64,000 nucleotides of DNA from contig CP136063.1 in assembly GCA_032622095.1 (NCBI GenBank), positions 283,271,426 to 283,335,425 on the forward strand, in the 5' to 3' direction. This document shows, piece by piece, positions 2,481 to 58,870 of this stretch. A program made the position numbers and the translations under genes. Below the pieces are notes generated by a model, which ran no database searches, was not told where the DNA came from, and saw only the letters and a list, made by a program, of their open reading frames with translations. This DNA is from Siphonodentalium dalli (lineage: Eukaryota; Mollusca; Scaphopoda; Gadilida; Siphonodentaliidae). How positions within the stretch are numbered: the stretch's first letter is position 1; each line of letters begins with the position of its first letter.

Positions 2481-3619
2481 CCCCCCCCCCCCACAAAGAC
2501 CGTAAATATTTAATAAATGGATAAAACGATACACGGGAAAAGCCATCTTCCTGCCATATTTCGTTTAAAAGTGTTTTGTATAACAGACGTTCAAGCAACC
2601 GTGTTAGAGGCAGGATCCGCGCTTGACTGAAATTTACTTTTGCCAAATAATTGCCAATTGCTATCCCTGGTAGTATCATTTTCTAAAACCTTATGTTTCG
2701 ACACTCGCGGTTTGAACGACTTTTGATATCGGTAGAAAAGCAGTTAGTTAATAATTAATTATACTCGCATCTTTATTGTGGTTTATCATACAGCAATAAG
2801 CCAATCACCGAACAATACAGTGGTAGGAGGGTTTCTGCATCAGAAGGGCACATCACAGGAGGGTTAGTAATCCCTCCAACCATCAGTTCTATATAATGCT
2901 ATGATATTAACTGCATATTAATAGAGGTGTCAACTGTCCTTAAACCCTATAAAACACCACTAATATAATTATTACTGTAAGAGTTTCCTGAAATTAATAG
3001 TAATGATTGACCAATACTTTTCAAATTGCTTGAGGAATTGAAAATTGACTTGCCAAAACTTTTGCCAAATGAAAATATGTTTTGCCAAATGTGAATTATT
3101 TTTGCAATTGGCAAGTGGCAGCGCGAACCCTGGTTACAGGTTACTATGATAGTAGCTTTTACTCAGTCAGTTTGCGGAAATAAATAGGAACACATTCAAT
3201 ACAAACTATTTTCTAACGACAGAAGCTCAGGGACGTGGTCAGAGGGTCACCGTCAAAGGGGGGGGGGGTGGCTCCCCTTAAGGGTATGTCCCCCTTACAA
3301 GTCAAACTGCACCAACCATTGTTCTAAATTCAAGGTTGGTGAAAATCCATTTTCACCAACTTGTGGACAATTCAAAACGTGACACCCCTCTAAGGTAACT
3401 GATAGCACATTCAGACCAAATGACAATATACAGACACACAATTTAAATGATGACATATATACACATGCAATACGATTTAACTTGAGAAGGCTCACTTGAA
3501 GTAAGCTCATCCGTCAAAGTGTGAGTATGCCAATCTAATTCCATAAGTGATAACCAACTCATACCGAAGACCGAAAAATAGTTAATGAAACACTATAAAT
3601 ACAAGAAGTTTGAGACAAG

Positions 3620-9331: not shown

Positions 9332-10767
9332 TTAGAATTTTAAATTCGGGGTCACGTTGTTATTTGTAAGGGAAAAGGAAATTGCCCTAGTTTTCGTTGG
9401 GTTAAATTTAACTAGCCATTTATTTGCCCAGTCTGCGACTCTTTCAAGGTCATCGTTCATGTTCTTGGTTAGGATATCGATGTCATAATGGGTAGTCATA
9501 AGGCAAGTATCGTCCGCATACATTCTTGTGGTTGCATTAATGTGATCAGGGAGGTCGTTTATGTAAACTAAAAATAGGAAAGGGCCAATAATCTAGCCTT
9601 GAGGGACACCCGCTGGGATAACTTCAAAATTTGAGAAGGAGTTGTTCACTAAGATCCTTTGTTTGCGATTGAACAGATAATCTTTTAGCTATTCTAAGAG
9701 ATTTCCAGAGACTCCATATTGTTCCAATTTATATAGCAGCCCCCTGTGCCATACTCTCTCGAATGCCTTTGATATATCAAAAAATACTGCACATGTATAG
9801 AGGCTGTTGTCGAGACTATGGCACAGGTTGTGATATAGTTCTATTAACTGGTATGTTGTACTATGGCCAGGGAGGAAGCCAGACTGGTGATTATATAACA
9901 AATTATTTTCCGTGAAGTATGTCATAATATGTTGTATGACCACTTTTTCGAAGATTTTGCCTAATGTCGGAAGGAGAGATATTGGACGGTAATTTGCGGA
10001 ATCGGCTGGGTCGCCTTTTTTGAAAATAGGGATGACGTTTGCCTTTTTCCAGGTCATTGGAAACTTACCAAGATCCAATGATGTTTTATAAATTATTAAT
10101 AGGGGGATTGCGATATTTTCGGCAGTAATATGCAACATTTTTGGGCTGATGCTATCGTGACCATACGCCTTATTTAATTTAATGATTTTATAGCGCACAC
10201 GATACTTTGATATGTGATTGGGATTTCGGATAGTATGTTATTGGTTCTACGAGGGAAATAAGGGAGATTTTTGGCATCGTCTTGTATAGTGGCATTAGAA
10301 ATGAATCTTGCGTTGAGACACCTAGCTTTTTCGTAATAATCTGTTGCATATGATTTCCCTTCAATTGATACGTCGCCATTGGGGCTATACAGAGGTGGGG
10401 TATTCGTAGATTTCTGTTTGTTAAGTAGATAATTCATAATATGCCAGAAATCGCGGGGAGTGGGGGTTTCATTTATTTTCTCCTCAAGTTTAGTTTCGAA
10501 TTGAGATGTTGCATACTTGTTCATGTTGTTAACTTTATTTTTAATATCCTTGTATTTTCTCCAAGTGTGCTCTGAATATGGTTTGAGTGCTATTGATCTG
10601 AGTCTATCGCGACGTCGTATTTCTCTCCGTATGTCGAAATTAAACCAGAATTTGTCCTTTGTCCTTATCGTCACTGTCATTTTGGGGATTGATTCTTCCA
10701 TTATTTTAATAAATCTCTCAGTAAATAAGCTTACTGCATCGTTTATGTCATTTACTGGTTGCAGCAA
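9332..10767 (-). pseudogene. LINE ORF2 reverse transcriptase region (broken)
   Basis: The linker (10,174-10,767) leads into the reverse transcriptase (9,689-10,198) with LNKAYGHDSISPKML, a K-K-A-N-V-I-P-I-F-K-K-G-D block, NYRPISLLPTLGKIFE, QSGFLPGHSTTYQL and FFDISKAFERVWH. The palm follows as GVPQG, an in-frame TAG, IIGPFLFLVYINDLPDH and MYADDTCLM (9,497-9,523), which holds the catalytic YADD. The enzyme would copy element RNA at the nick made by the endonuclease. The linker and reverse transcriptase overlap by 25 bp in different frames, which implies a frameshift. With the TAG in the motif usually read GVPQGS, this copy is non-functional. Confidence 0.85.
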
Positions 10768-10860
10768 TTCATGCCATTTGCTCTCATTTATTAAGATATT
10801 CGCTTTCTGAAAATCTGCATTTTTATAGTTCCAGATAGTTCTTGTGAAAGAGGTCGCATG

Positions 10861-11559
10861 CTATTTCATTGATGAAATTGTCGCGTAAACAGCGTAATGA
10901 TCAGACAATTCAAGATTTAGAACGTCAGCGTCCCGGACACTCAAGTTGTTACTCACGATTATAGGATCGAGTAGGGTGCTGGTTCTAGTGGTAACTCTAG
11001 TTGGGGTTTTTATTACGTCCTTAAGTGTATAGAAATCAATAATATTTTTGAGTTTGGAAGTGAGGCATAGTAGATTGGAGTTAAAATCTCCAAGTAGAAT
11101 TATATTTTGGGAGACATCTAGTGCCTGAGATATGGACAAATCTAACAGATCCCAATAGTTCGATCGGCAATTTTGATCTGATCGATACGATAAGCATAGC
11201 AAAATATGTTGTGATTTTGAGACAATGTCAAACCTTAGCATTGAAGAAGTATCGGTTTCTAAATCGTTTCTCCTTTTGAAGACCAGATGAGAGGAGACGT
11301 ATACGCATAGTCCACCGCCGTAGGAATCTCGATCAAGTCGGATAGGGGGACTGAAATTATCAATCTCTAGTCTATCGGAGGGGTAAGAGGGGTCAAGGTG
11401 AGTTTCGGTGAAACACAGGATATCGAAGTCATTTATCATATCGGCTATCTTTTCCAGTTTATGTCTAATGCTCCGTACATTATAATGGAATACTACTGTT
11501 AATGTGTTGCCTTCGTGTACAGTTTTATGGCTTGGGCTGGGCCCTGAGTTGCGGAGCAT
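10861..11559 (-). pseudogene. LINE AP-type endonuclease domain
   Basis: A 232-codon minus-strand frame with the order expected of exonuclease-endonuclease-phosphatase folds: HYNVRSIRHK (metal-site Asn), DILCFTETHLD (catalytic Glu), SYGGGLCVYV, ILLGDFNSNL (GDFN) and ELSDHYAVYA (catalytic SDH). It would nick target DNA for target-primed reverse transcription. The domain is nearly complete, but a stop and frame change follow before the linker at 10,767, so it is cut off from the reverse transcriptase. Confidence 0.85.
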
Positions 11560-11966: not shown

Positions 11967-12128
11967 AGACCGGGTAGAGTATTTCGTTTTGGAACGGGAA
12001 GGAGAAAGTTATTGTGTCGCTTTGGGTCTCGTATTTTGAAAGATCGAGGCCTATTTGTGCTTCATATGCGGAGCCATTGATATATAAAATGCGATGTACA
12101 GAGGCGGCCGAGTATGGCAGAATACATT

Positions 12129-12134
12129 ATTATG
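12129..12134. repeat. Left 6-bp target-site duplication (ATTATG)
   Basis: ATTATG directly precedes AGTAGTATATATC. The same six bases follow the other end of the palindromic element at 18,201-18,206. Six-base duplications are a recorded trait of Maverick/Polinton integration. Confidence 0.85.
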
Positions 12135-13168
12135 AGTAGTATATATCAAGCTGTGTCACCCCCAAGCGAGGTGGAGCCGTGGAGCCAATGTTTACATAAC
12201 ACGTTGCTTTGTTGTGTTGTTAAAGGGGGTATTTAAATTTAAGGGTAGACAATGGGTTTAAAGGGACAACAATTGAATTTAAATGGATGCTATTGAAATG
12301 TATTTAAAGGGAAAGATAGAATAATGAATCGGGTCATTGAATTTAATGAGTGTGTTGAATGGGTTGTAATTGATAGAGTATACAAGAATGAATCGGGTTA
12401 TTGAAATTATTTCGAGTGATATCGGGTCAGTGATTTATCTAGCGGGCGGTATGACAGATATATAAGAATTTGTTTTGTGCAAAAGCATAGCTAAATTAGA
12501 TAGGATCTTGCATGGGATAACAAATGGATGTAATTGATAGAGTATACAATACGGGCATAATTGGAATGATATGCGGAAGCAACCGATCAGTAATTATTAG
12601 TCAAATGAACGAGTTTTATATATGTTACTATTTGGCAAGATCAGTCCTCATCAGATGATAATGGGTACGAAGCGGACGATGACGAATGAATACAGCGAAA
12701 AAGAAAAAAACTCGGGATTCTTTTGAACCCCCAACTATCAATTAATATTAGTTATATTCCATAATCCCTCTGTTGATTCAGTTGGTTAGGACTCCAAGCA
12801 GATATTTCGTCCCAGATCGAGCAAGTCGTGGGTTCAAACAGAGTGATAGTAGTCGACAAGTTTGAACATAACCTCTGGGCGCCGCATATATCACGTGGTT
12901 TCCGCCACCAAGGTAGAGTTTATCCATATAGCAGAAGGTGACCGTATATGATCGAAAACGGGTATAAATATTATATAGTATAGGTTACGGGTATTCGGGT
13001 AGATGGTTTGACTGCCTAAGCCCTAAACTCCTCAACCTCAGCCATCAGGGTGAGAGGACACGCCGCGGTGTGTTATCACTAATGGAATAGGATCTCGGGG
13101 TGATAAACGATCGCGTTAACCCTATTGTGTATCGCCTATATATGTAATATGAAAGAAAATAGGGGGAG
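12135..13168. other. Left outer arm, non-coding
   Basis: AT-rich, with no supported gene. 12,230-12,420 contains loosely repeated phrases such as ATTGAATTTAA, AATGAATCGGGT and TTGATAGAGTATACAA. It mirrors 17,168-18,200. It also includes the tRNA-like segment at 12,766-12,848. Confidence 0.7.
12766..12848 (+). tRNA. tRNA-like segment in left arm, probably not a functional tRNA
   Basis: TTCAGTTGGTTAGGAC resembles a tRNA D-arm/box A and TCGTGGGTTCAAAC a T-arm/box B, about 50 bp apart. CTCTGT before it and ACAGAG after it can pair as a shortened acceptor stem. The 3' half of the T stem is missing, since AGAG follows where CCCAC is expected, and I cannot identify an anticodon stem. It is best described as tRNA-derived. 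The mirror copy is at 17,492-17,575. Confidence 0.4.
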
Positions 13169-13540
13169 GTGTACTTGGGTGGAGGTTATGCGGATATCGC
13201 AGATAAAAAGATACCGTTGATATATATTGGTACTATAAAAGGAATATATAACGCTGTTATATTACGAACACCAATATTAGATGGAAGAATAAAGACAAAT
13301 AAACAGTATAGTGTATCAACATTTGCTTTATTCGACACCAAGAAAAATAGGTTTATTGCAGTTAATCATCGTCGTCATCTTGCTCAGAGTCTTGAGAGGA
13401 GTCCATCTCTTTATCGTTTTTGTCCTCACTGTTATTTCTCATGTACTCCATTAGGAGGGGTTTATATTTCCTCAAAGAAATCCGAACGGCAGGGAGTATA
13501 TCATAGCTATCATCTAGCATCTTATACACACGATCCATGA
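13169..13540 (+). CDS. Convergent open frame, left arm (uncertain)
   Basis: 123 codons from a GTG, with no ATG at the start and a stop three codons upstream. It converges on the ATPase gene and overlaps its C-terminal extension in antisense. The mirrored frame in the other arm is also open and differs at only a few residues. The first part (VYLGGGYADIADKKIPLIYI) lies outside the antisense overlap and could be the 3' exon of a gene lost from the element. I recognise no family. Chance conservation through the palindrome is as likely. Confidence 0.25.
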   Translation: MYLGGGYADIADKKIPLIYIGTIKGIYNAVILRTPILDGRIKTNKQYSVSTFALFDTKKNRFIAVNHRRHLAQSLERSPSLYRFCPHCYFSCTPLGGVYISSKKSERQGVYHSYHLASYTHDP

Positions 13541-14865
13541 TCTTGATATGAGTTTTCCCACCACTAACTTCAAGTAAATTTTGTATAAATGCAGCGTATA
13601 TGTTTAAGAAACGCCTCTCATACTCGGACGTATCTTCACTTTCGATTTTTCTTCAGCCTCGTCTTCTGTCAATCCTTTCTTCATAAAACGTTCAACTAAT
13701 TCATCTAATTCTGCTTTATTGTCATCTTGGGCCTGTAACCACACCTCTTCGAAATAATCGTTTTCTTTTTCAGTCGGAAGTTTTAATATTAGTCTGTCCT
13801 GGTCAGGAATTAATTCTATTTTATTCGTGTCAGTTTTCTGTTTTTTATTATTCGCCCGTGCATTTTCAATTGATTCTCTTTTCTTCCTATCAGAACACCA
13901 ATTTTTAATGACCCTTTGTACATCATGCTGGGTCTCAAATACGACACCACAATCGTCACAGCTTGGCATGATGTTGTCTTCGCTTTCAGAGTCGTATTCC
14001 TGCTGTGACAATAGCCCAGGGTATGTAGTTTCACTGATGTTATCTTTCTTTTGATGCGTTATCAAAATATGCTTTCTTGTTTTATACTCTACGTTGTCAG
14101 CACATTACTACGCAGTCGCAAATTTTCTGGAGTATTCGTTTTTAAGTCAACTACGAGATAACCAAATGGTTGATTGGTAGCTTCATTGAAATGGGACATA
14201 AAGTGTTGTGTTTTCTCTGGATACATTTGACGAGCTAGAGTCATTACCTGCATTTTATCTATAGGGTTGTTGAATAGAATCACGTAGTGGCAATTTCTCC
14301 GTTGGGTAGGGTCCTTGTTATAGTAGAGCGATTGATTAATCGCAACCACTGATATACCCAAATGGTGACTGCCTTCCGTGAATAATTCAGTAACCCGCGA
14401 ATCCTTGGATGCCGTAGACATAAGGTCATCAAGTACAATCAGACAGTTTTTTCCAGAATGAATGAGGGTGTCCGAATTAGTCGGAAGACCTTGTATAAAC
14501 TGGACAGATGGCGCGACTGTGTCCTTGATTTCATCGTACAATGGCTGCCAGTACTTATAGAACCAAATTATTTTCTCGGGTGAAGGCTGTATAGCCGTTG
14601 AACAATTTTGAAGTATACTCTTAAGCAGGTGTGTTTTGTTGCAAGAAGTGGGTCCCGAAATCCACGCGGTAAATGGATGCCTGAATTTGAAGTCATCCTG
14701 TCGCGCGCCACCACTGCTTTCTCTATAAGGTTGTTGTTGTTGTTGTCGTTGTTGTTGTTGTAGTTGTTGTTGGTGTTGTTGTCGAGAGTGTTTGAACTTT
14801 ATATGCCGTTTTAAACTGTCTGGCCATACATATTCAATTGAACATGTTTCACACTGATGCTTCAT
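13362..14865 (-). pseudogene. Broken left-arm copy of the packaging-type ATPase
   Basis: Mirror of the intact gene at 15,428-16,732, read on the minus strand. The changes inactivate it: the Walker A loop reads GPTSCNKT instead of GPTSCGKT, a TAG follows the SNVLTT segment at about 14,090, and about 36 bp are missing just after it, shifting frame. In the second zinc finger the first His is Val (VQRVIKNWC). The glutamine run is also shorter and one residue is lost before EATNQP. All these occur in one arm only, so the arms have diverged since duplication and gene conversion has not kept them identical. Confidence 0.85.
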
Positions 14866-15125
14866 CCTTGACCGATGTGAGGGCACTGAGTTTTTTTCAG
14901 ATAAAAGAGAGCCTTTTATGACAGGAAGAACAATATCTATTAATCGAGTTTTCAGTTCCAGATTTTGAATCTAGTATGGTGCCGCAGTGTCTTAATTTGA
15001 TCTTGGACGGTGCCGCCGTGTCTGAGTTATACACCACATAATTATTTGCCATGCGAAATGTCTTATGTTTTCCCGCTTAAGTAACATTGTATATACAAAA
15101 TAGACATCTCAATGTAACACATACG

Positions 15126-15164
15126 ATTATTCCATCGTTTTGATTCGCTCGATGATGGAATAAT
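15126..15164. other. Centre of the 6-kb palindrome
   Basis: ATTATTCCATC (15,126-15,136) and GATGGAATAAT (15,154-15,164) are the innermost paired bases around a spacer of about 17 bp (GTTTTGATTCGCTCGAT). The arms 15,060-15,125 and 15,165-15,240 pair almost perfectly. So short a spacer is what a fold-back or template-switch event leaves. Confidence 0.85.
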
Positions 15165-15427
15165 AATAGTATGTGTGACATTGAGATGTCTATTCTGTAT
15201 ATACAATGTTACTTAAGCGGGAAAACATAAGACATTTCGTATGGCAAATAATTATGTGGTGTATAACTCAGACACGGCGGCACCGTTCAAGATCCAATTA
15301 AGACACTGCGGCACCATACTAGATTCAAAATCTGGAACTGAAAACTCGATTAATAGATATTGTTCTTCCTGTCATAAAAGGCTCTCTTTTATCTGGAAAA
15401 GACTCAGTGCCCTCACATCGGTCAAGG

Positions 15428-16732
15428 ATGAAGCATCAGTGTGAAACATGTTCAATTGAATATGTATGGCCAGACAGTTTAAAACGGCATATAAAGTTCA
15501 AACACGCTCGACAACAACACCAACAACAACTACAACAACAACAACGACAACAACAACAACAACAACAACCTTATCGAGAAAGCAGTGGTGGCGCGCGACA
15601 GGATGACTTCAAATTCAGGCATCCATTTACCGCGTGGATTTCGGGACCCACTTCTTGCGGCAAAACACACCTGCTTAAGAGTATACTTCAAAATTGTTCA
15701 ACGACTATACAGCCTTCACCCGAGAAAATAATTTGGTTCTATAAGTACTGGCAGCCATTGTACGATGAAATCAAGGACACAGTCGCGCCATCTGTCCAGT
15801 TTATACAAGGTCTTCCGACTAATTCGGACACCCTCATTCATTCTGGAAAAAACTGTCTGATTGTACTTGATGACCTTATGTCTACGGCATCCAAGGATTC
15901 GCGGGTTACTGAATTATTCACGGAAGGCAGTCACCATTTGGGTATATCAGTGGTTGCGATTAATCAATCGCTCTACTATAACAAGGACCCTACCCAACGG
16001 AGAAATTGCCACTACGTGATTCTATTCAACAACCCTATAGATAAAATGCAGGTAATGACTCTAGCTCGTCAAATGTATCCAGAGAAAACACAACACTTTA
16101 TGTCCCATTTCAATGATGAAGCTACCAATCAACCATTTGGTTATCTCGTAGTTGACTTAAAAACGAATACTCCAGAAAGTTTGCGACTGCGTAGTAATGT
16201 GCTGACAACGAAGAGTATAAAACAAGAAAGCATATTGCCAAATAACAGTAGTGTTGATGAGCCCGTCGAGGTGATAACGCATCAAAAGAAAGATAACATC
16301 AGTGAAACTACATACCCTGGGCTATTGTCACAGCAGGAATACGACTCTGAAAGCGAAGACAACATCATGCCAAGCTGTGACGATTGTGGTGTCGTATTTG
16401 AGACCCAGCATGATGTACAAAGGCACATTAAAAATTGGTGTTCTGATAGGAAGAAAAGAGAATCAATTGAAAATGCACGGGCGAATAATAAAAAACAGAA
16501 AACTGACACGAATAAAATAGAATTAATTCCTGACCAGGACAGACTAATATTAAAACTTCCGACTGAAAAAGAAAACGATTATTTCGAAGAGGTGTGGTTA
16601 CAGGCCCAAGATGACAATAAAGCAGAATTAGATGAATTAGTTGAACGTTTTATGAAGAAAGGATTGACAGAAGACGAGGCTGAAGAAAAATCGAAAGTGA
16701 AGATACGTCCGAGTATGAGAGGCGTTTCTTAA
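15428..16732 (+). CDS. Zinc-finger P-loop ATPase, Maverick/adintovirus packaging type
   Basis: Probably an A32/FtsK-like DNA-packaging ATPase, which in Polintons/adintoviruses is thought to pump genomic DNA into capsids. I chose the ATG at 15,428; an in-frame GTG at 15,407 is further upstream with no ATG before it. About 434 residues. N-terminal C2H2 finger (C-x2-C-x12-H-x4-H), then a glutamine-rich CAA-repeat tract. The ATPase core begins FRHPFTAWISGPTSCGKTHL (Walker A), followed by a GLP-type segment, NCLIVLDDLM (Walker B), LFTEGSHHLGISVVAINQS, LARQMYP and QPFGYLVVDL. A second, C2HC finger (C-x2-C-x12-H-x4-C) precedes a charged C-terminal region. The frame ends early compared with an open continuation in another phase (next entry). 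The family is inferred from motifs and the 6-bp duplication. Confidence 0.75.
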   Translation: MKHQCETCSIEYVWPDSLKRHIKFKHARQQHQQQLQQQQRQQQQQQQPYRESSGGARQDDFKFRHPFTAWISGPTSCGKTHLLKSILQNCSTTIQPSPEKIIWFYKYWQPLYDEIKDTVAPSVQFIQGLPTNSDTLIHSGKNCLIVLDDLMSTASKDSRVTELFTEGSHHLGISVVAINQSLYYNKDPTQRRNCHYVILFNNPIDKMQVMTLARQMYPEKTQHFMSHFNDEATNQPFGYLVVDLKTNTPESLRLRSNVLTTKSIKQESILPNNSSVDEPVEVITHQKKDNISETTYPGLLSQQEYDSESEDNIMPSCDDCGVVFETQHDVQRHIKNWCSDRKKRESIENARANNKKQKTDTNKIELIPDQDRLILKLPTEKENDYFEEVWLQAQDDNKAELDELVERFMKKGLTEDEAEEKSKVKIRPSMRGVS

Positions 16733-16974
16733 ACATATACGCTGCATTTATACAAAATTTACTTGAAGTTAGTGGTGGGAAAACTCATATCAAGATCATG
16801 GATCGTGTGTATAAGATGCTAGATGATAGCTATGATATACTCCCTGCCGTTCGGATTTCTTTGAGGACATATAAACCCCTCCTAATGGAGTACATAAGAA
16901 ATAAAAGTGAGGACAAAAACGATAAAGAGATGGACTCCTCTCAAGACTCTGAGCAAGATGACGACGATGATTAA
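16684..16974 (+). CDS. Out-of-phase C-terminal continuation of the ATPase
   Basis: From 16,684 to the TAA at 16,972-16,974 the phase one base back from the ATPase frame is open for 96 codons and looks coding. It has a hydrophobic/aromatic stretch (NIYAAFIQNLLEV), a basic helix-like part and a strongly acidic end (SEQDDDDD). It overlaps the last 16 codons of the ATPase frame. AATAAA follows at 16,979-16,984, a plausible polyadenylation signal. Either a single-base insertion in the A-run near 16,683-16,689 split a longer gene, or ribosomes shift there. Both arms share the same run of bases, so the break predates the palindrome or is functional. Confidence 0.55.
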   Translation, partial: RKIESEDTSEYERRFLNIYAAFIQNLLEVSGGKTHIKIMDRVYKMLDDSYDILPAVRISLRTYKPLLMEYIRNKSEDKNDKEMDSSQDSEQDDDDD

Positions 16975-17167
16975 CTGCAATAAACCTATTATTCTTGGTG
17001 TCGAATAAAGCAAATGTTGATACACTATACTGTTTATTTGTCTTTATTCTTCCATCTAATATTGGTGTTCGTAATATAACAGCGTTATATATTGCTTTTA
17101 TAGTACCAATATATATCAACGGTATCTTTTTATCTGCGATATCCGCATAACCTCCACCCAAGTACAC
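16796..17167 (-). CDS. Convergent open frame, right arm (uncertain)
   Basis: Mirror of the frame at 13,169-13,540, with only a few residue differences over 123 codons. It starts at a GTG and is preceded closely by a stop. The 16,798-16,974 part is antisense to the ATPase continuation, so openness there may be forced by the other strand. No recognised domain. Confidence 0.25.
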   Translation of the reverse strand: MYLGGGYADIADKKIPLIYIGTIKAIYNAVILRTPILDGRIKTNKQYSVSTFALFDTKNNRFIAVNHRRHLAQSLERSPSLYRFCPHFYFLCTPLGGVYMSSKKSERQGVYHSYHLASYTHDP

Positions 17168-18200
17168 CTCCCCCTATTTTCTTTCATATTACATGTATAG
17201 GCGATACACAATAGGGTTAACGCGATCGTTTATCACCCCGATATCCTATTCCATTAGTGATAACACACGGCGGCGTGTCCTCTCACCCTGATGGCTGAGG
17301 TTGAGGAGTTTAGGGCTTAGGCAGTCAAACCATCTACCCGAATACCCGTAACCTATACTATATAATATTTATACCCGTTTTCGATCATATACGGTCACCT
17401 TCTGCTATATGGATAAACTCTACCTTGGTGGCGGAAACCACGTGATATATGCGGCGCCCAGAAGTTATGTTCAAACTTGTCGACTACTATCACACTGTTT
17501 GAACCCACGACTTGCTCGATCTGGGACGAAATATCTGCTTGGAGTCCTAACCAACTGAATCAACAGAGGGATTATGGAATATAACTAATATTAATTGATA
17601 GTTGGGGGTTCAAAAGAATCCCGAGTTTTTTTCTTTTTCGCTGTATTCATTCGTCATCGTCCGCTTCGTACCCATTATCATCTGATGAGGACTGATCTTG
17701 CCAAATAGTAACATATATAAAACTCGTTCATTTGACTATTAATTACTGATCGGTTGCTTCCGCATATCATTCCAATTATGCCCGTATTGTATACTCTATC
17801 AATTACATCCATTTGTTATCCCATGCAAGATCCTATCTAATTTAGCTATGCTTTTGCACAAAACAAATTCTTATATATCTGTCATACCGCCCGCTAGATA
17901 AATCACTGATCCGATCTCACTCGAAACAATTTCAATAACCCGATTCATTCTGGTATACTCTATCAATTACAACCCATTCAACACACTCATTAAATTCAAT
18001 GACCCGATTCATTCTTCTATCTTTCCCTTTAAATACATTTCAATAGCATCCATTTAAATTCAATTGTTGTCCCTTTAAACCCATTGTCTACCTTTAAATT
18101 TAAATACCCCCTTTAAAAACACAACAAAGCAACGTGTTATGGAAACATTGGCTCCACGGCTCCACCTCGCTTGGGGTGACACAGCTTGATATATACTACT
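17168..18200. other. Right outer arm, non-coding
   Basis: Mirror of 12,135-13,168 with scattered substitutions and small indels. It includes a tRNA-like segment on the minus strand at about 17,492-17,575 and ends CTTGATATATACTACT. No gene supported. Confidence 0.7.
17492..17575 (-). tRNA. tRNA-like segment in right arm
   Basis: Reverse complement of the left-arm segment: GTTTGAACCCACGACTTG and GTCCTAACCAACTGAA on the plus strand. It has the same missing T-stem half, so the defect predates the palindrome. Confidence 0.4.
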
Positions 18201-18206
18201 ATTATG
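18201..18206. repeat. Right 6-bp target-site duplication (ATTATG)
   Basis: Matches 12,129-12,134 exactly. The match does not extend on either side, so the duplication is exactly six bases. Confidence 0.85.
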
Positions 18207-18690
18207 CATAGGCCTACCCGGACTTGTCCGCAAAGCATACGTTAGTTCAGAACGCGAAGATAATTTTTCATGAGCATTCCATTTTGACGAGGCTAGTGTT
18301 TGTTTGTGCTTCTCGGCTCCCGTAGTTTTGTCTACTCGGCTGTCAAATTGGCTGAAAGATTGTACCTATTTCACATTATAGACCGATTATGTGCGTAGTT
18401 GCGCGAGGTTATGTTGAACTAGTAGCAATTTCAGACCAAAATTGTGACTCATTATAGAAAATTATGCTACTGCTTGTCTAATATAATCTAAAATAATTTT
18501 AAAAGGTACGTGGTGTAAAAATATCTAACAAATGTGTGAGTCATGAAAGTTCCAAATGCTGAATATTTTTACAACAGTTCGGGTGGGGAGGGGAGGGATA
18601 TACACCGCAAGCCCCCTGTTGCTCACGTACCTTGTTGATGTTGGTAGGTCCCACGGCGTCAATATTGGTACCTTATTTTATGTCTCTAAA
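18207..18690. other. Anonymous flank right of the palindrome
   Basis: Probably the continuation of the DNA that received the element. About 18,370-18,420 (CACATTATAGACCGATTATG) matches a dispersed repeat also seen at 45,520-45,570 and, inverted, at 36,050-36,110 and 41,165-41,230. No gene seen. Confidence 0.5.
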
Positions 18691-22249: not shown

Positions 22250-22600
22250 CTTATTAGCCAAACATAAAAAACATGCAAGTATACGGTATACCTGCCCACA
22301 TTTGAATTGTGAAATAAATCGTTTTAGCCAAATCATACGTACATGTAGCAATTACATGCAGGTATACCTGTCCACATTGGCATAGTGCTATATATTTTTA
22401 GCAAAATCATACGTACCTGACGTGTAGCAATTACATTCAATAATAACTGCCCACATTGGTGTCGTGCAAAAATCTTTTAGCAAAATCATAGATACGTGTA
22501 GCAATTACATGCAAGTATACCTGCCAACATTGACAACGTGCAATGAATTGAAGATATGTATGGATAATTGTTTTAGAAGTTTTAATTCACACGATATATT
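22250..22600. repeat. Diverged tandem copies of the 67-bp module
   Basis: Three to four units of roughly 90-100 bp, each with AAATCATACGTA-like, GTAGCAATTACATGCA and CTGCCCACATTGG segments. These are older relatives of the array at 1-430. The sequence then continues AGTTTTAATTCACACGATAT as in the B module. Confidence 0.75.
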
Positions 22601-29239: not shown

Positions 29240-32200
29240 AACCTTTCTATACTAAAGCATATTAATGAGTACTTATCCCATTAGGAAATGTTCAGATAAT
29301 AAGTGTATCCCTTTCTATACTAAAGCATATTAATGAGTACTTATTCCATGAGGAAATGTTCAGATAATAAGTGTATCGCTTTCTATACTAAAGCATATTG
29401 ATGAGTACTTATTCCACGAGGAAATGTTCACATAATAAGTGTATCCCTTTCTATACTAAAGCATATTGATGAGTACTTATCCCATTTGAAATGTTCAGAT
29501 AATAAGTGTATCCCTTTCTATACTAAAGCATATTGATGAGTACATATCCCATGAGAAAATGTTCAGATAATAAGTGTATCTCTTTATATACTAAAGCATA
29601 TTAATGAGTACTTATCCCATTTGAAATTTTCAGATAATAAGTGTATCCCTTTCTATACTAAAGCATATTAATGAGTACTTATCCCACGAGGAAATATTCA
29701 GATAATAAGTGTATCCCTTTCTATACTAAAGCATATTGATGAGTACTTATCCATGAGGAAATGTTCAGATAATAAGTGTATCCCTTTCTATACTAAAGCA
29801 TATTAATGAGTACTTATCCCATGAGGAAATCTTGAGATAATAAGTGTATCCCTTTCTATACTAAAGCATATTGATGAGTACTTATTCAATGAGGAAATGA
29901 TCAGATAATAAGTGTATCCCTTTCTATACTAAAGCATATTGATGAGTACTTATCCCATTTGAAATGTTCAGATAATAAGTGTATCCCTTTCTATACTAAA
30001 GCATACTAATGAGTACTTATCCCATTTGAAATGTTCAGATAATAAGTGTATCCCTTTCTATACTAAAGCATATTAATGAGTACTTATCCCATGAGGAAAT
30101 GTTCAGATAATAAGTGTATTCCTTTCTATACTAAAGCATATTAATGAGTACTTATTCCATGAGGAAATGTTCAGATAATAAGTGTATCCCTTTCTATACT
30201 AAAGCATATTAATGAGTACTTATCCCATGAGGAAATGTTCAGATAATAAGTGTATTCCTTTCTAATCTAAAGCATATTAATGAGTACTTATCCCATGAGG
30301 AAATGTTCAGATAATAAGTGTATCCCTTTATATACTAAAGCATATTAATGAGTACTTATCCCATGAGGAAATGTTCAGATAATAGGTGTATCCCTTTCCA
30401 AACTAAAGCATATTGATGAGTACTTATTCAATGAGGAAATGTTCAGATAATAAGTGTATCCCTTTCTATACTAAAGCATATTGATGAGTACTTATCCCAT
30501 TTGAAATGTTCAGATAATAAGTGTATCCCTTTCTATACTAAAGCATATTAATGAGTACTTATCCCATTTGAAATGTTCAGATAATAAGTGTATCCCTTTC
30601 AATACTAAAGCATATTAATGAGTACTTATCCCATGAGGAAATGTTCAGATAATAAGTGTATTCCTTTCTATACTAAAGCATATTAATGAGTACTTTTCCC
30701 ATTTGAAATGTTCAGATAATAAGTGTATCCGTTTCTATACTAAAGCATATCAATGAGTACTTATCCCATGAGGAAATGTTCCGATAATAAGTGTATCCCT
30801 TTCTATACTAAAGCATATTAATGAGTACTTATCCCATGAGGAAATGTTCAAATATTAAGTGTATCCCTTTCTATACTAAAGCATATTAATGAGTACTTAT
30901 TCCATAAGGAAATGTTCAGATAATAAGTGTATCCCTTTCTAATCTAAAGCATATTAATGAGTACTTATCCCATGAGGAAATGTTCAGATAATAAGTGTAT
31001 CCCTTTATATACTAAAGCATATTAATGAGTACTTATCCCATTTGAAATGTTCAGATAATAAGTGTAGCCCTTTCTATACTAAAGCATATTAATGAGTACT
31101 TATCCCACGAGGAAATATTCAGATAATAAGTGTATCCCTTTCTACACTAAAGCATATTGATGAGTACTTATTCCATGAGGAATTGTTCAGATAATAAGTG
31201 TATCCCTTTCTATACTAAAGCATATTGATGAGTACTTATCCCATGAGGAAATGTTCAGATAATAAGTATATCCCTTTATATACTAAAGCATATTAATGAG
31301 TACTTATCCCATTTGAAATGTTCATATAATAAGTGTATCCCTTTCTATACTAAAGCATATTAATGAGTACTTATCCCATGAGGAAATGTTCAGATAATAA
31401 GTGTATCCCTTTCTATACTAAAGCATATTAATGAGTACTTATCACACGAGGAAATGTTCAGATAATAAGTGTATCCCTTTCTATACTAAAGCATATTGAT
31501 GAGTACTTATTCAATGAGGAAATGTTCAGATAATAATTATATCCCTTTCTATACTAAAGCATATTAATGAGTACTTATCCCGTTTGAAATGTTCAGATAA
31601 TAAGTGTATCCCTTTCTATTCTAAAGAATATTAATGAGTACTTATCCCATGAGGAAATGTTCAGATAATAAGTGTATCTCTTTCTATACTAAAGCATATT
31701 AATGAGTACTTATCCCAATAGGAAATGTTCAGATAATAAGTGAATCCCTTTCTATACTAAAGCATATTGATGAGTACCTATCCCATGAGGAAATGTTCAG
31801 ATAATAAGTGTATCCCTTTATATACTAAAGCATATTAATGAGTACTTATCCCATGAGGTAATGTTCAGATAATAAGTGGATCCCTTTCTATACTAAAGCA
31901 TAGTAATGAGTACTTATCCAATACGAAATGTTCAGATAATAAGTGGATCCCTTTCTATACTAAAGCATAGTAATGAGTACTTATCCAATACGAAATGTTC
32001 AGATAATAAGTGTATCCGTTTCTATACTAAAGCATATTGATGAGTACCTATCCCATGAGGAAATGTTCATATAATAAGTGTATCCCTTTCTATACTAAAG
32101 CATATTAATGAGTACTTATTTCATGAGGAAATGTTCAGATAATAAGTGTACCCCTTTCTATACTAAAGCATATTAATGAGTACTTATCCCATGAGGAAAT

Positions 32201-32637
32201 GTTCAGATAATAAGTGTATCCCTTTCTATACTAAAGCATATTAATGAGTACTTATTCCATGAGGAAATGTTCAGATAATAAGTGTACCCCTTTCTATACT
32301 AAAGCATATTAATGAGTACTTATTCCATGAGGAAATGTTCAGATAATAAGTGTACCCCTTTCTATACTAAAGCATATTAATGAGTACTTATCCCATTTGC
32401 AATGTTCAGATAATAAGTTTATCCCTTTCTATACTAAAGCATATTGATGAGTACTTATTCCGTGAGGAAATGTTCAGATAATAAGTGTATCCCTTTCTAT
32501 ACTAAAGCATATTGATGAGTACCTATCCCATGAGGAAATGTTCATATAATAAGTGTATCCCTTTCTATACTAAAGCATATTAATGAGTACTTATTTCATG
32601 AGGAAATGTTCAGATAATAAGTGTACCCCTTTCCATT
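29240..32637. repeat. 68-bp satellite, about 50 copies
   Basis: The monomer starts CCTTTCTATACTAAAGCATA, continues TTAATGAGTACTTATCCC, then either ATGAGGAAATG (68 bp) or ATTTGAAATG (67 bp), and ends TTCAGATAATAAGTGTATC. The two forms and small variants (GTACCCC, CCAATACG) are interspersed, and blocks such as GTGTACCCC cluster near the right end, suggesting local duplication of multi-unit blocks. Single relatives occur at 51,530-51,600 and about 45,065-45,135, inside MITE-like sequence. Confidence 0.97.
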
Positions 32638-38426: not shown

Positions 38427-39762
38427 TCCCTAATTCGTTTCTATTTATCTAAACAAAAACCAGATATTTAGCCACTAATTCGTCTTCTATTTATCTAAAC
38501 AAAATCCATATATTTAGCCCCTAATTCGTCTTCTATTTATCTAAACAAAAACCATCCATTTAGCCCCTAATTCGACTTCTATTTATCTAAACAAAAACCA
38601 TACATTTAGCCCCTAATTTGTCTTCTATTTATATAAACAAAATCCATACATTTAGCCCCTAATTCGTCTTCTATTTATCTAAACAAAAACCATACATTTA
38701 GCCACTAATTCGTCTTCTATTTATCTAAACAAAAACCATACATTTAGCCCCTAATTCGTCTTCTATTTATCTAAACAAAAACCATACATTTAGCCACTAA
38801 TTCGTCTTCTATTTATCTAAACAAAAACCATACATTTAGCCCCTAATTCGACTTCTATTTATCTAAACAAAAACCATACATTTAGCCCCTAATTTGTCTT
38901 CTATTTATATAAACAAAATCCATACATTTAGCCCCTAATTCGTCTTCTATTTATCTAAACAAAAACCATACATTTAGCCACTAATTCGTCTTCTATTTAT
39001 CTAAACAAAAACCATACATTTAGCCCCTAATTCGTCTTCTATTTATCTAAACAAAATCCATACATTTAGCCCCTAATTCGTCTTCTATTTATCTAAACAA
39101 AATCCATACATTTAGCCCCTAATTCGTCTTCTATTTATCTAAACAAAATCCATACATTTAGCCCCTAATTCGACTTCTATTTATCTAAACAAAATCCATA
39201 CATTTAGCCCATAATTCGTCTTCTATTTATCTAAACAAAAACCATACATTTAGCCCCTAATTCGTCTTCTATTTATCTAAACAAAATCCATACATTTAGC
39301 CCCTAATTCGACTTCTATTTATCTAAACAAAAACCATACATTTAGCCCATAATTCGTCTTCTATTTATCTAAACAAAATCCATACATTTAGCCCCTAATT
39401 CGTCTTCTATTTATCTAAACAAAATCCATACATTTAGCCCCTAATTCGACTTCTATTTATCTAAACAAAATCCATACATTTAGCCCATAATTCGTCTTCT
39501 ATTTATCTAAACAAAAACCATACATTTAGCCCCTAATTCGTCTTCTATTTATCTAAACAAAATCCATACATTTAGCCCCTAATTCGACTTCTATTTATCT
39601 AAACAAAAACCATACATTTAGCCCATAATTCGTCTTCTATTTATCTAAACAAAAACCATACATTTAGCCCCTAATTCGTCTTCTATTTATCTAAACAAAA
39701 TCCATACATTTAGCCCCTAATTCGTCTTCTATTTATCTAAACAAAATCCATACATTTAGCCT
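38427..39762. repeat. 46-bp satellite, about 29 copies
   Basis: The unit is CTAATTCGTCTTCTATTTAT, CTAAACAAAAACCATACATT, TAGCCC. It varies at a few linked sites: CGTCTTC or CGACTTC, AAAACC or AAATCC, and CCCC, CCAC or CCAT. The order of variants repeats over several units (for example 39,150-39,300 and 39,450-39,640), so blocks of several units were duplicated. No unique spacers. Confidence 0.97.
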
Positions 39763-56654: not shown

Positions 56655-58870
56655 TTCAGAGTTGACTCTCTTGTATCATGAAAGCAAGCCCAATGAGGCC
56701 ATGCACCTATTGTATGTTTATAACACACAAAAGACTATATAATAGCAGAATGCTAATATCTCTGATGATACAAACAATAAAATATCCAATTTATCCATAG
56801 TTGAATTTCATTTGGCTATATAGGAAAGCATACAATGTGGCTTTTATGTAGTTTCCACAAAGTATTTTAAGTAAAATATCCATCAAGTGATGTATTCTGC
56901 CTTGTCCTATATATTAAAATGCATGCAATGGTCATGAGAAATGCTTAATTTATTGGTAGAGATGTCCATCTGATAAGAAATACTGACATTTTAGGTTTGA
57001 TACACCATTTCAGCTGGCTTGGCATCTTTTAAATTTGAAACCTAAGGGAATTTATTCAGCTTTGACTCTCTAAATTATGGAAGAAAGCCCAAATGAAGCC
57101 ACTATGTGCATGTTAATAACATGTATAAGGCTATATATCTCAACAGAATATATGTCTGATAAAATGCACAATAAAATATCCATAGTTCAATTGCATTTGG
57201 CTATAGAGGGATGCATACAATATTGCTTTTATGTAGTTTCCACAGACTATTTTAAGTAAAATATCCATCAAATGATGTTTTCTACATAGCCTTGTATATT
57301 AAAATGCATGTAATGACCATGGGAAATGTTTAATTCATTAGTTGATATGTCCATCTGATAAGAAATACTGACATTTGAGGTTTAAAATACCATTTCATGG
57401 GATTATGGGATCATAAATATAAAACTAAGGGAATTTCTTCAGATTTGACTCTCTAAATAATGGAAGAAAGCCCAAATGAAGCCACAATTTGCATGTTAAA
57501 AACATGTATAAGGCTATATCTCAACAGAATACACGTCTCTGATAAAATACACAATAAAATACCCATAGTTTAATTTCATTTGGCTGTAGAGGGATGCATA
57601 CAATATTGCTTTTATGTAGTTTCCACAGACTATTTTAAGTAAAATATCCATCAACTGATGTTTTCTACCTTGGTCTATATATTATAATGCATGCAGTGAC
57701 CATGAGAAATGTTTAATTTATTGGTAGAGATGTCCATCTGATAAGAAATACTGTCATTTGAGGTTTGATACACCATTTCAGCTGGCTTGGCATCTTGTAA
57801 ATTTGAAATAAGGGAATCTCTTCAGGTTTGACTCTCTAAATTATGGAAGCAAGCCCAAATAAAGCCACTATTTGCATGTTTATAACATATATAAGGCTAT
57901 ATCTCAACAGAATGCATGTCTCTAATGAAATAAACAATACAATATCCATAGTTTAATTTCATTTGGCTATACAGGGATGCATACAATATGGCTTTTATGT
58001 AGATTTGACAGACTATTTTAAGTAATATTTCCATCAAATGATGTTTCTACCTTGTCCTGTATATTAAAATGCATGCAATGACCATGAGAAATGTTTAATT
58101 TATTGGTAGACATGTCCATCTGATAAGAAATACTGCCATTTGAGGTTTGATACACCATTTCAGTTGCCTTGGCATCTTACAAATTTGAAATAAGGGAATC
58201 TCTTCAGGTTTGACTCTCTAAATTATGGAAGCAAGCCCAAATGAAGCCACTATTTGCATGTTTATAACATATATAAGGCAATATCTCAACAGAATACATG
58301 TCTCTGGTGAAATAAACAATAAAATATCCATAGTTTAATTTATTTTGGCTACACAGGGGTGCATACAATATGGCTTTTAGGTTGTTTCCACAGACTATTT
58401 TAAGTAAAATATCCATCAAATGATGTTGTCTACCTTGTCCTGTATATTATAATGCATGCAATGACTATGAGAAATGTTTAATTTATTGGTAGAGATGTCC
58501 ATCTGATAAGAAGTACTAATATTTGATGTTTGTGACATCAACTCACAGGGCCAGGCATGCTCCAACTTTCAAACTAAGAGAATTTCCTCACGTTTGACTC
58601 ACTAAATGATGGAAGTTAGCCCAAATGAAGCAACTATTTGCATGTTTATAATGTATAAGGCTATATCTTTGCAGAAGGCATGTCTCTGATAATAAAAATA
58701 ATAACATGTCTATAGTTCATAGTTCAGTTGGTTAGACAGGGTGCATAAAATATGGCTTTAAGTATAGTTTTCACAAACTAGAAATTCTAGAATATCTATA
58801 AAATGATGTAACCTGCCTTGCTGTGTATTAAAAATTCATGCAATAACCTGATAAATGTTCAGTTCATTGG
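56655..58870. repeat. About 382-bp satellite, 5-6 copies
   Basis: TTGACTCTCTAAATTATGGA starts units near 56,663, 57,063, 57,445, 57,828, 58,209 and 58,589. Each includes GGCTATATCTCAACAGAAT, GGGATGCATACAATATGGC, TCCATCTGATAAGAAATACT. The outer units are the most diverged, as expected if unequal exchange homogenises the middle. No coding frame is shared by all units. Confidence 0.93.

Follow-up and report, generated by a model that had tools for sequence, protein, structure and literature searches.

Adenoviruses, which are protein-primed relatives, are known to form palindromic defective genomes in which a single viral end is present twice, head to head; we know of no integrated, self-perpetuating family of such defectives. 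The Foldback (FB) elements of flies are mobile DNA made up mostly of inverted repeat, and differ from the elements described below in their ends, in the length of the target duplication and in having no Polinton gene. To our knowledge, replication of Polintons has hardly ever been observed directly. A 6-kb palindromic Polinton was analysed here in a stretch of 64,000 nucleotides from the scaphopod Siphonodentalium dalli (contig CP136063.1; the whole stretch is called the window), together with its relatives in the host genome. The window copy was found to be one of many palindromic, non-autonomous Polintons, a family that was probably made by snap-back replication.

Vertebrate Mavericks are 12.7-24.6 kb long, with terminal repeats of 46-1,447 bp, (AGT)2//(ACT)2 ends and a 6-bp target duplication (PMC8097293). 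The present elements resemble Maverick/Polinton elements in their 6-bp target duplications, in the (AGT)2//(ACT)2 end motif and in a packaging ATPase. They differ in length (6 kb), in the mirroring of one end and in gene content, none of the frames scanned being recognisable as a polymerase, integrase, protease or capsid gene.

In particles of adeno-associated virus (AAV), snap-back genomes occur for both ends, in symmetric and in looped form (PMC8235507). The present elements share with these a self-complementary genome built from one end, in symmetric form or in an asymmetric form with a loop; their genes point outward from the centre, which is also the arrangement of the 3' snap-back form of AAV. 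The AAV molecules are packaged parvovirus genomes, whereas the present family is integrated, multicopy and of a protein-primed lineage; the likeness is used as an analogy only, and parvoviral genes were absent from the Pfam matches of the five element frames scanned. No palindromic Polinton was named in the titles and abstract openings listed by full-text literature searches, in a collection without subscription papers and preprints.

Anatomy of the palindrome and its family in the host genome

Self-alignment of the window showed that 12135-18200 is a palindrome of 6,066 bp with arms of about 3 kb each. Its features are as follows.

12129-12134, no strand: left target-site duplication, ATTATG (sequence)
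12135-15137, + strand: left arm, end to centre, starting AGTAGT (self-alignment)
13604-14886, - strand: left-arm copy of the predicted ATPase gene, Walker A GPTSCNKT (frame listing, arm alignment)
15138-15149, no strand: unpaired spacer (loop) of 12 bp, TTTTGATTCGCT, the palindrome centre
15150-18200, - strand: right arm, centre to end, finishing ACTACT (self-alignment)
15428-16732, + strand: predicted packaging ATPase frame of the right arm, 434 amino acids, Walker A GPTSCGKT (Pfam, homologues, fold)
18201-18206, no strand: right target-site duplication, ATTATG (sequence)

The arms were paired by an inverted match of 1,905 nt at 99% (12160-14064 with 16272-18176) and by three at 98% each (14066-14186 with 16116-16236, 14183-14782 with 15517-16116 and 14730-15131 with 15162-15563). 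Full alignment of arm against arm gave 49 substitutions. Leaving aside 11 at the centre and 1 that falls in the target duplication, 37 remain, about 1.2% of the arm (identity about 98.8%); gaps of 34, 6, 3 and 1 bp lie within the arms. The termini are AGTAGTATATATCAAGC and its complement, both flanked by ATTATG. The spacer TTTTGATTCGCT recurs exactly at two other loci, L032 and L033. A preliminary description of the window had reported near-identical inverted halves and a clean 6-bp duplication, ATTATG, and both were recovered, the arms matching as a one-ended palindrome over their whole length. Its limits (12129-18206) include the duplications, the element proper being 12135-18200, and the spacer that it put at about 17 bp (15,137-15,153) is present at the smaller size and position listed above.

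Each arm bears a predicted packaging ATPase gene of the A32/IVa2 type, read from the centre outward. The longest frame of the right arm (15407-16732, +) matched Adeno_IVa2 (2e-6) and Pox_A32 (3.5e-5), above the curated cut-offs, when 15407-16729 was scanned against Pfam; a C2H2 finger C-terminal to the ATPase was above its cut-off and an N-terminal one below. Homologues numbered 362 at E ≤ 1e-3; among the 120 of these that were listed, those named by organism were bivalve proteins, plus one from an assembly labelled Sedimenticola. Among PDB entries, the AlphaFold2 model (mean pLDDT 75) was matched best by B204, the packaging ATPase of Sulfolobus turreted icosahedral virus (STIV), and its matches among viral models include A32-type packaging ATPases and adenovirus IVa2. 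A pattern search of IMG/VR with the ATPase gave no match. The Pfam scan covered five element frames, other short frames being listed only. Two further arm frames had no match above cut-off, and no match to a protein-primed polymerase (PolB), integrase, protease or capsid protein was obtained in the five frames, so that the element is at most a non-autonomous derivative. With the target duplication and the (AGT)2 ends, as in Mavericks (PMC8097293), the ATPase upholds the Polinton affinity proposed before.

The ATPase frame of locus L028 extends past the end point of the right-arm frame of the window, where the corresponding continuation sits in another frame (16684-16974), the 3' part being frameshifted. 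Since this frameshift is identical in both window arms and the left arm is further damaged, with a deletion of 34 bp at 14064, private to this arm, that breaks the gene and with the altered Walker A, the window copy is a decayed member. Ratios of non-synonymous to synonymous substitution rates (dN/dS) for the ATPase were 0.33-1.50, mostly 0.4-0.6, in pairs with L016 or L055, and hint weakly at selection.

The host assembly (2.23 Gb, 9 contigs) was searched with the terminal 872 bp of the element. As 40 of 153 candidates were scored, the counts are lower bounds: at least 42 matches, at least 40 of them long, at no fewer than 29 loci, with facing pairs 4-6 kb apart at 11 or more of these. Besides the window, 20 other loci were read; together they comprise 20 elements, L024 and L028 being the two ends of a single one, between which about 28 kb has been inserted; 8 of the 29 end loci are not among them.

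Mirror-image ends with a perfect 6-bp duplication were found in 15 of the 20 elements: the window copy (WIN), L009-L014, L016, L017, L018, L019, L021, L022, L025 and L024+L028. Thirteen are independent, because L017 and L022 have the same flanks as L016 and L021, respectively; several of the 15 have one arm shortened. Four more (L015, L023, L026 and L027) show both arms and are without one end or the duplication: L015 has both ends, inverted flanks and no target duplication, while the second arm is about 25 bp long in L023 (seen together with L033), about 100 bp in L026 and 310 bp in L027. The twentieth, L020, is a 0.9-kb stump.

The flank hexamers agreed in 12 of 12 independent elements, all different from one another, and in none of 132 cross-element pairings; L015, L027 (no match) and the one-ended loci were left out of this control. 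The right ends of L009 and L024 were allowed one additional ACT unit. In L009 and L018, which contain an extra internal copy of the terminus, the outer copy was used here, and the inner copy of L018 in the arm comparison. Further duplications are GTCATA (L028+L024) and GTTGGG (C6:150.37 Mb); the flanks of L052 are alike by eye at five of six bases, and a 6-bp duplication was found neither at L015 nor at L027. Outside 12001-18300 the left arm had a single match in the window at E ≤ 1e-3, a stretch of 25 bp, and this, with the agreement of the flank hexamers, excludes a chance palindrome. Separate insertions thus each have their own flanks with 6-bp duplications. The preliminary description had held the integration to be genuine, as it is, and had proposed a check for palindromic copies with other duplications, which turned up as described. 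It had explained the window copy by a single replication accident; what is seen instead is a multicopy mobile family with several classes of centre and with arms that change in concert.

Two pairs of palindromes, 0.9-2.2 Mb apart (C5:130.15/132.35 Mb and C4:137.93/138.80 Mb), have their flanks and target duplications in common, and are either segmental duplications or unresolved haplotypes. At L015 (G000:C4:173054373-173059384) the 500-bp flanks are inverted copies, 99.8% identical over flank plus arm; with 64% DNA identity, they resemble another ATPase gene near its glutamine repeat. The arrangement looks like the outcome of a palindrome landing in a second Polinton and seeding a larger, composite palindrome there. 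The insertion in one arm of the L028/L024 element, of about 28 kb (L028 from 2547 to L024 up to 7443; C6:162665294-162693332), was about half read, and has inverted ends of about 448 bp, 94.7% identical, which begin GACCGGCCCC.

Palindrome centres and concerted change of the arms

A search with the inner end gave 30 loci, 28 of them distinct, and 1.5 kb was read on either side of each. A second arm of at least 200 bases was present in 18 of the 28, one of 23-80 bases in 5 and none in 5. Locus L043 continues, by eye, into a reverse-transcriptase frame. The class 1 centre lies at arm position ~3040-3058. That of class 2 lies near window 14908/14936, with a loop or offset of about 28-33 nt, and this one junction is the same at six loci (L011, L013, L015, L016 with its copy L017, L025 and L026), apart from differences of a few bases in the loop of L011 and L016 and a cut on one side in L015. 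In class 3 (L056/L058) the fold lies at arm 2987/2988, with an offset of 1 nt, and 2,991 bp are 99.9% palindromic. One end duplicated around a near-symmetric, looped centre, the form of snap-back genomes, was thus found, with one arm shortened in several copies.

Class B (L050-L055) has arms mostly 83-92% identical to those of the window, with short stretches up to 95%, and extends about 430 bp further inward, beyond arm 3050, with an interior shared within the subgroup; a marker from this interior was present in 6 of the 30 loci and absent from the other 24. The L050 centre is self-complementary across 270 bp (85.9%), and in L052 a 266-bp stretch lies between arms that are inverted on both sides to near the ends. 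Ends of class B were seen in one copy only, and an end search for L055 missed. In another subgroup (L035, L037 and L040) just 20-45 bp is shared beyond the arm: L040 runs from arm A into an interior that begins ATGGCGCCAAAGAGG and is absent from the other arm, and L035 and L037 carry part of this interior. Because the centres of class B and class 1 hold mutually absent sequence, at least two fold-backs were independent; classes 2 and 3 are probably additional ones.

One-sided deletions adjoin the centre in many copies. Those of L014 (L044), L019 (L036) and L040 start alike (~2953, ATGGCAAATAA) and end differently, and arm position ~2953 is a possible recurrent switch point. The L035 interior (C9:78.50 Mb) holds a second, tiny fold-back with arms of about 20 bp, some 25 nt past the usual centre, at the first codons of an inward frame.

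A tree of arms was built from the terminal 1,000 bp of 13 elements (L019 cut to 705 bp) and from 6 single arms, L024 and L028 among them, which were used in the tree only. The two arms of one element were exclusive sisters in all 13 elements, the WIN pair being without a support value because it is at the root. Arms diverged on average by 0.57% inside an element and by 3.9% from those of other elements, and 10,000 random re-pairings of arms produced no set as tight as the real one.

Independent fold-backs would also give exclusive sisters, so that class 2, with its one common junction, is the sharper test. Sites at which both arms of a copy have the same minority base were counted against those at which one arm only has it, over the stretch present in both. 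The counts were 37/2 for L025, 11/2 for L013, 11/1 for L015, 9/2 for L016 and 9/4 for L017. At 16 sites, in a few clusters, a base is common to both arms of two separate insertions, the arms having therefore been alike before those insertions. The groupings given by such sites conflict, L015 siding in turn with L016, L013 and L011, suggesting that lineages exchanged sequence near the ends. In L025 the outer 1 kb holds most of the changes, as if it had been acquired by exchange and then passed on to both arms.

Origin of the palindromes and alternative explanations

The reading that we consider probable is that these elements are palindromic, non-autonomous Polintons made by snap-back replication, and we infer that they arose as follows. 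Protein-primed copying of a linear Polinton from the ATPase-side terminus would halt about 2.8-3.5 kb in; the halted strand would fold back on a few bases and serve as its own template until the terminus was reached again. This would leave a palindrome whose two ends are identical, with a loop of at most ~30 nt. Such palindromes were integrated like ordinary Polintons, at many sites, with exact termini and 6-bp duplications. Once formed, a palindrome seems to have multiplied as such, as supported for one junction class by the same junction at six loci, and with one exception both arms changed together between insertions. The displaced single strand may self-anneal as a hairpin, in which arm differences would become mismatches and be repaired, or one arm would be re-copied from the other. 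Integrase, polymerase and capsid would be supplied in trans by another Polinton, since no gene for them was recognised in the frames scanned. Snap-back replication would explain the one-endedness, the near-symmetric centres with short loops, the exact termini that fit an integrase and the variable depth of the centres, and the multiplication of class 2 together with the joint change of its arms suggests a hairpin stage in each cycle. The fold-back origin put forward in the preliminary description thereby stands as the likeliest source, from the symmetry of the centres; what is shown directly is the anatomy, the insertion and the concerted change of the arms.

Several points weigh against this reading. 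Five inner-end loci (L035, L038, L043, L053 and L057) show no second arm within the 1.5 kb read; truncation or interruption may be the cause, or they may be parents. Neither a complete parent nor a helper bearing these termini turned up among the 20 elements and the 28 partly read inner-end loci, no genome-wide search having been aimed at one. L015 lacks a target duplication and its own flanks are inverted. Symmetric trimming of class 1 centres could, in principle, have produced classes 2 and 3, and the priming of a fold-back by a few bases was read by eye. The divergence ranges of the arms overlap (smallest between elements 0.50%, largest within 1.42%), and L011, the exception above, has equal numbers of both-arm and one-arm sites (6/6). 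Concerted change could come from gene conversion between arms within the chromosome. For AAV, end joining is favoured over template switching as the source of snap-back genomes (PMC8235507), and end joining is an alternative for the present elements too.

Internal deletion of the core from a parent with terminal inverted repeats of about 3 kb, ATPase included, has in its favour that Mavericks do have long terminal repeats (46-1,447 bp in vertebrates; PMC8097293) and that one-sided deletions near the centre are frequent in the family. Random deletions would nevertheless not yield near-symmetric centres such as those of classes 2 and 3. The centres moreover lie at different depths, that of L050 being self-complementary over its 270 bp, the L040 interior past arm A is missing from the other arm, and no core-bearing copy was among the 20 elements from the end search; we regard core deletion as improbable. 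The near-symmetry and variety of the centres likewise argue against a parent with the ATPase at both ends, which had been raised in the preliminary description. An inverted assembly artefact has in its favour that palindromes are hard to assemble. It is very unlikely, because the arms have private differences and the flanks are distinct, with perfect 6-bp duplications, in 13 independent elements and one more locus.

Two further explanations concern the later history of the palindromes, and each of them appears rather doubtful to us. Arms may be kept alike by gene conversion after insertion, in the chromosome and not at a hairpin stage of the mobile DNA. Palindromes of Y chromosomes have arms kept alike in this way, and such conversion would make the arms exclusive sisters just as well; against it, the 16 class 2 sites show arms alike before two separate insertions, and the window arms retain 37 substitutions and the 34-bp deletion unconverted. 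Every palindrome might also have arisen by its own fold-back of an unseen parent, at one of a few hot spots, with no transposition as a palindrome, in keeping with the clustering of centre positions and a centre region prone to form hairpins. The class 2 copies, however, have the same long loop bar a few bases and group in the tree, and one junction at six loci is less likely to be due to recurrence than to one founder.

Snap-back replication being the preferred origin, we would go further only tentatively, on a proposal that we hold to be somewhat less likely than its opposite. The palindromes may be a self-perpetuating satellite, in effect a 3-kb one-arm genome whose second arm is corrected or rebuilt through the hairpin in each cycle, so that snap-back genomes of an animal Polinton, resembling defective-interfering ones, would persist in the germline as a lineage of their own, perhaps with the ATPase under selection. 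If the snap-back origin is true, integrated genomes with datable arms would be physical evidence for protein-primed copying by strand displacement in the germline, and the set would show how a Polinton replicon fails and what becomes of the failures. Divergence of the arms could serve as a clock for insertions, like that of long terminal repeats (LTRs). The family bears on whether Polintons carry satellites of the defective-interfering kind, as viruses do.

A parent element was sought by comparing the interiors of all inner-end loci (30, of which 28 distinct). An integrase-like frame adjoining L039, at first sight part of a parent, was set aside, as the DNA beyond it (L059) reads as another Polinton lineage. 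At L059 (G000:C8:58873500-58880400) ATPase-like and integrase-like frames and a AGTAGTATAT motif were noted by eye, apparently joined to an arm of the palindrome family (L039); the profile matches were below cut-off (rve, E 0.011; Pox_A32, E 0.051). L020 was also rejected as the possible other end: 0.9 kb of terminus is followed by long frames that look low in complexity.

Other features of the window

Remains of a non-LTR retrotransposon, with reverse transcriptase and endonuclease matches, lie at 9689-11559 (-), about 575 bp before the palindrome. Tandem arrays were found at 29242-32633 (68 bp × 50), 38428-39761 (46 bp × 29) and 56792-58870 (383 bp × 5.4), and a GC skew of -0.42 at 38-40 kb coincides with the 46-bp array. 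Positions 1-430 (67-bp units) and 22286-22532 (74-79-bp units) look similar, with ...CCACATTGG...ATACGTA...ATTACATG..., and are possibly one dispersed satellite.

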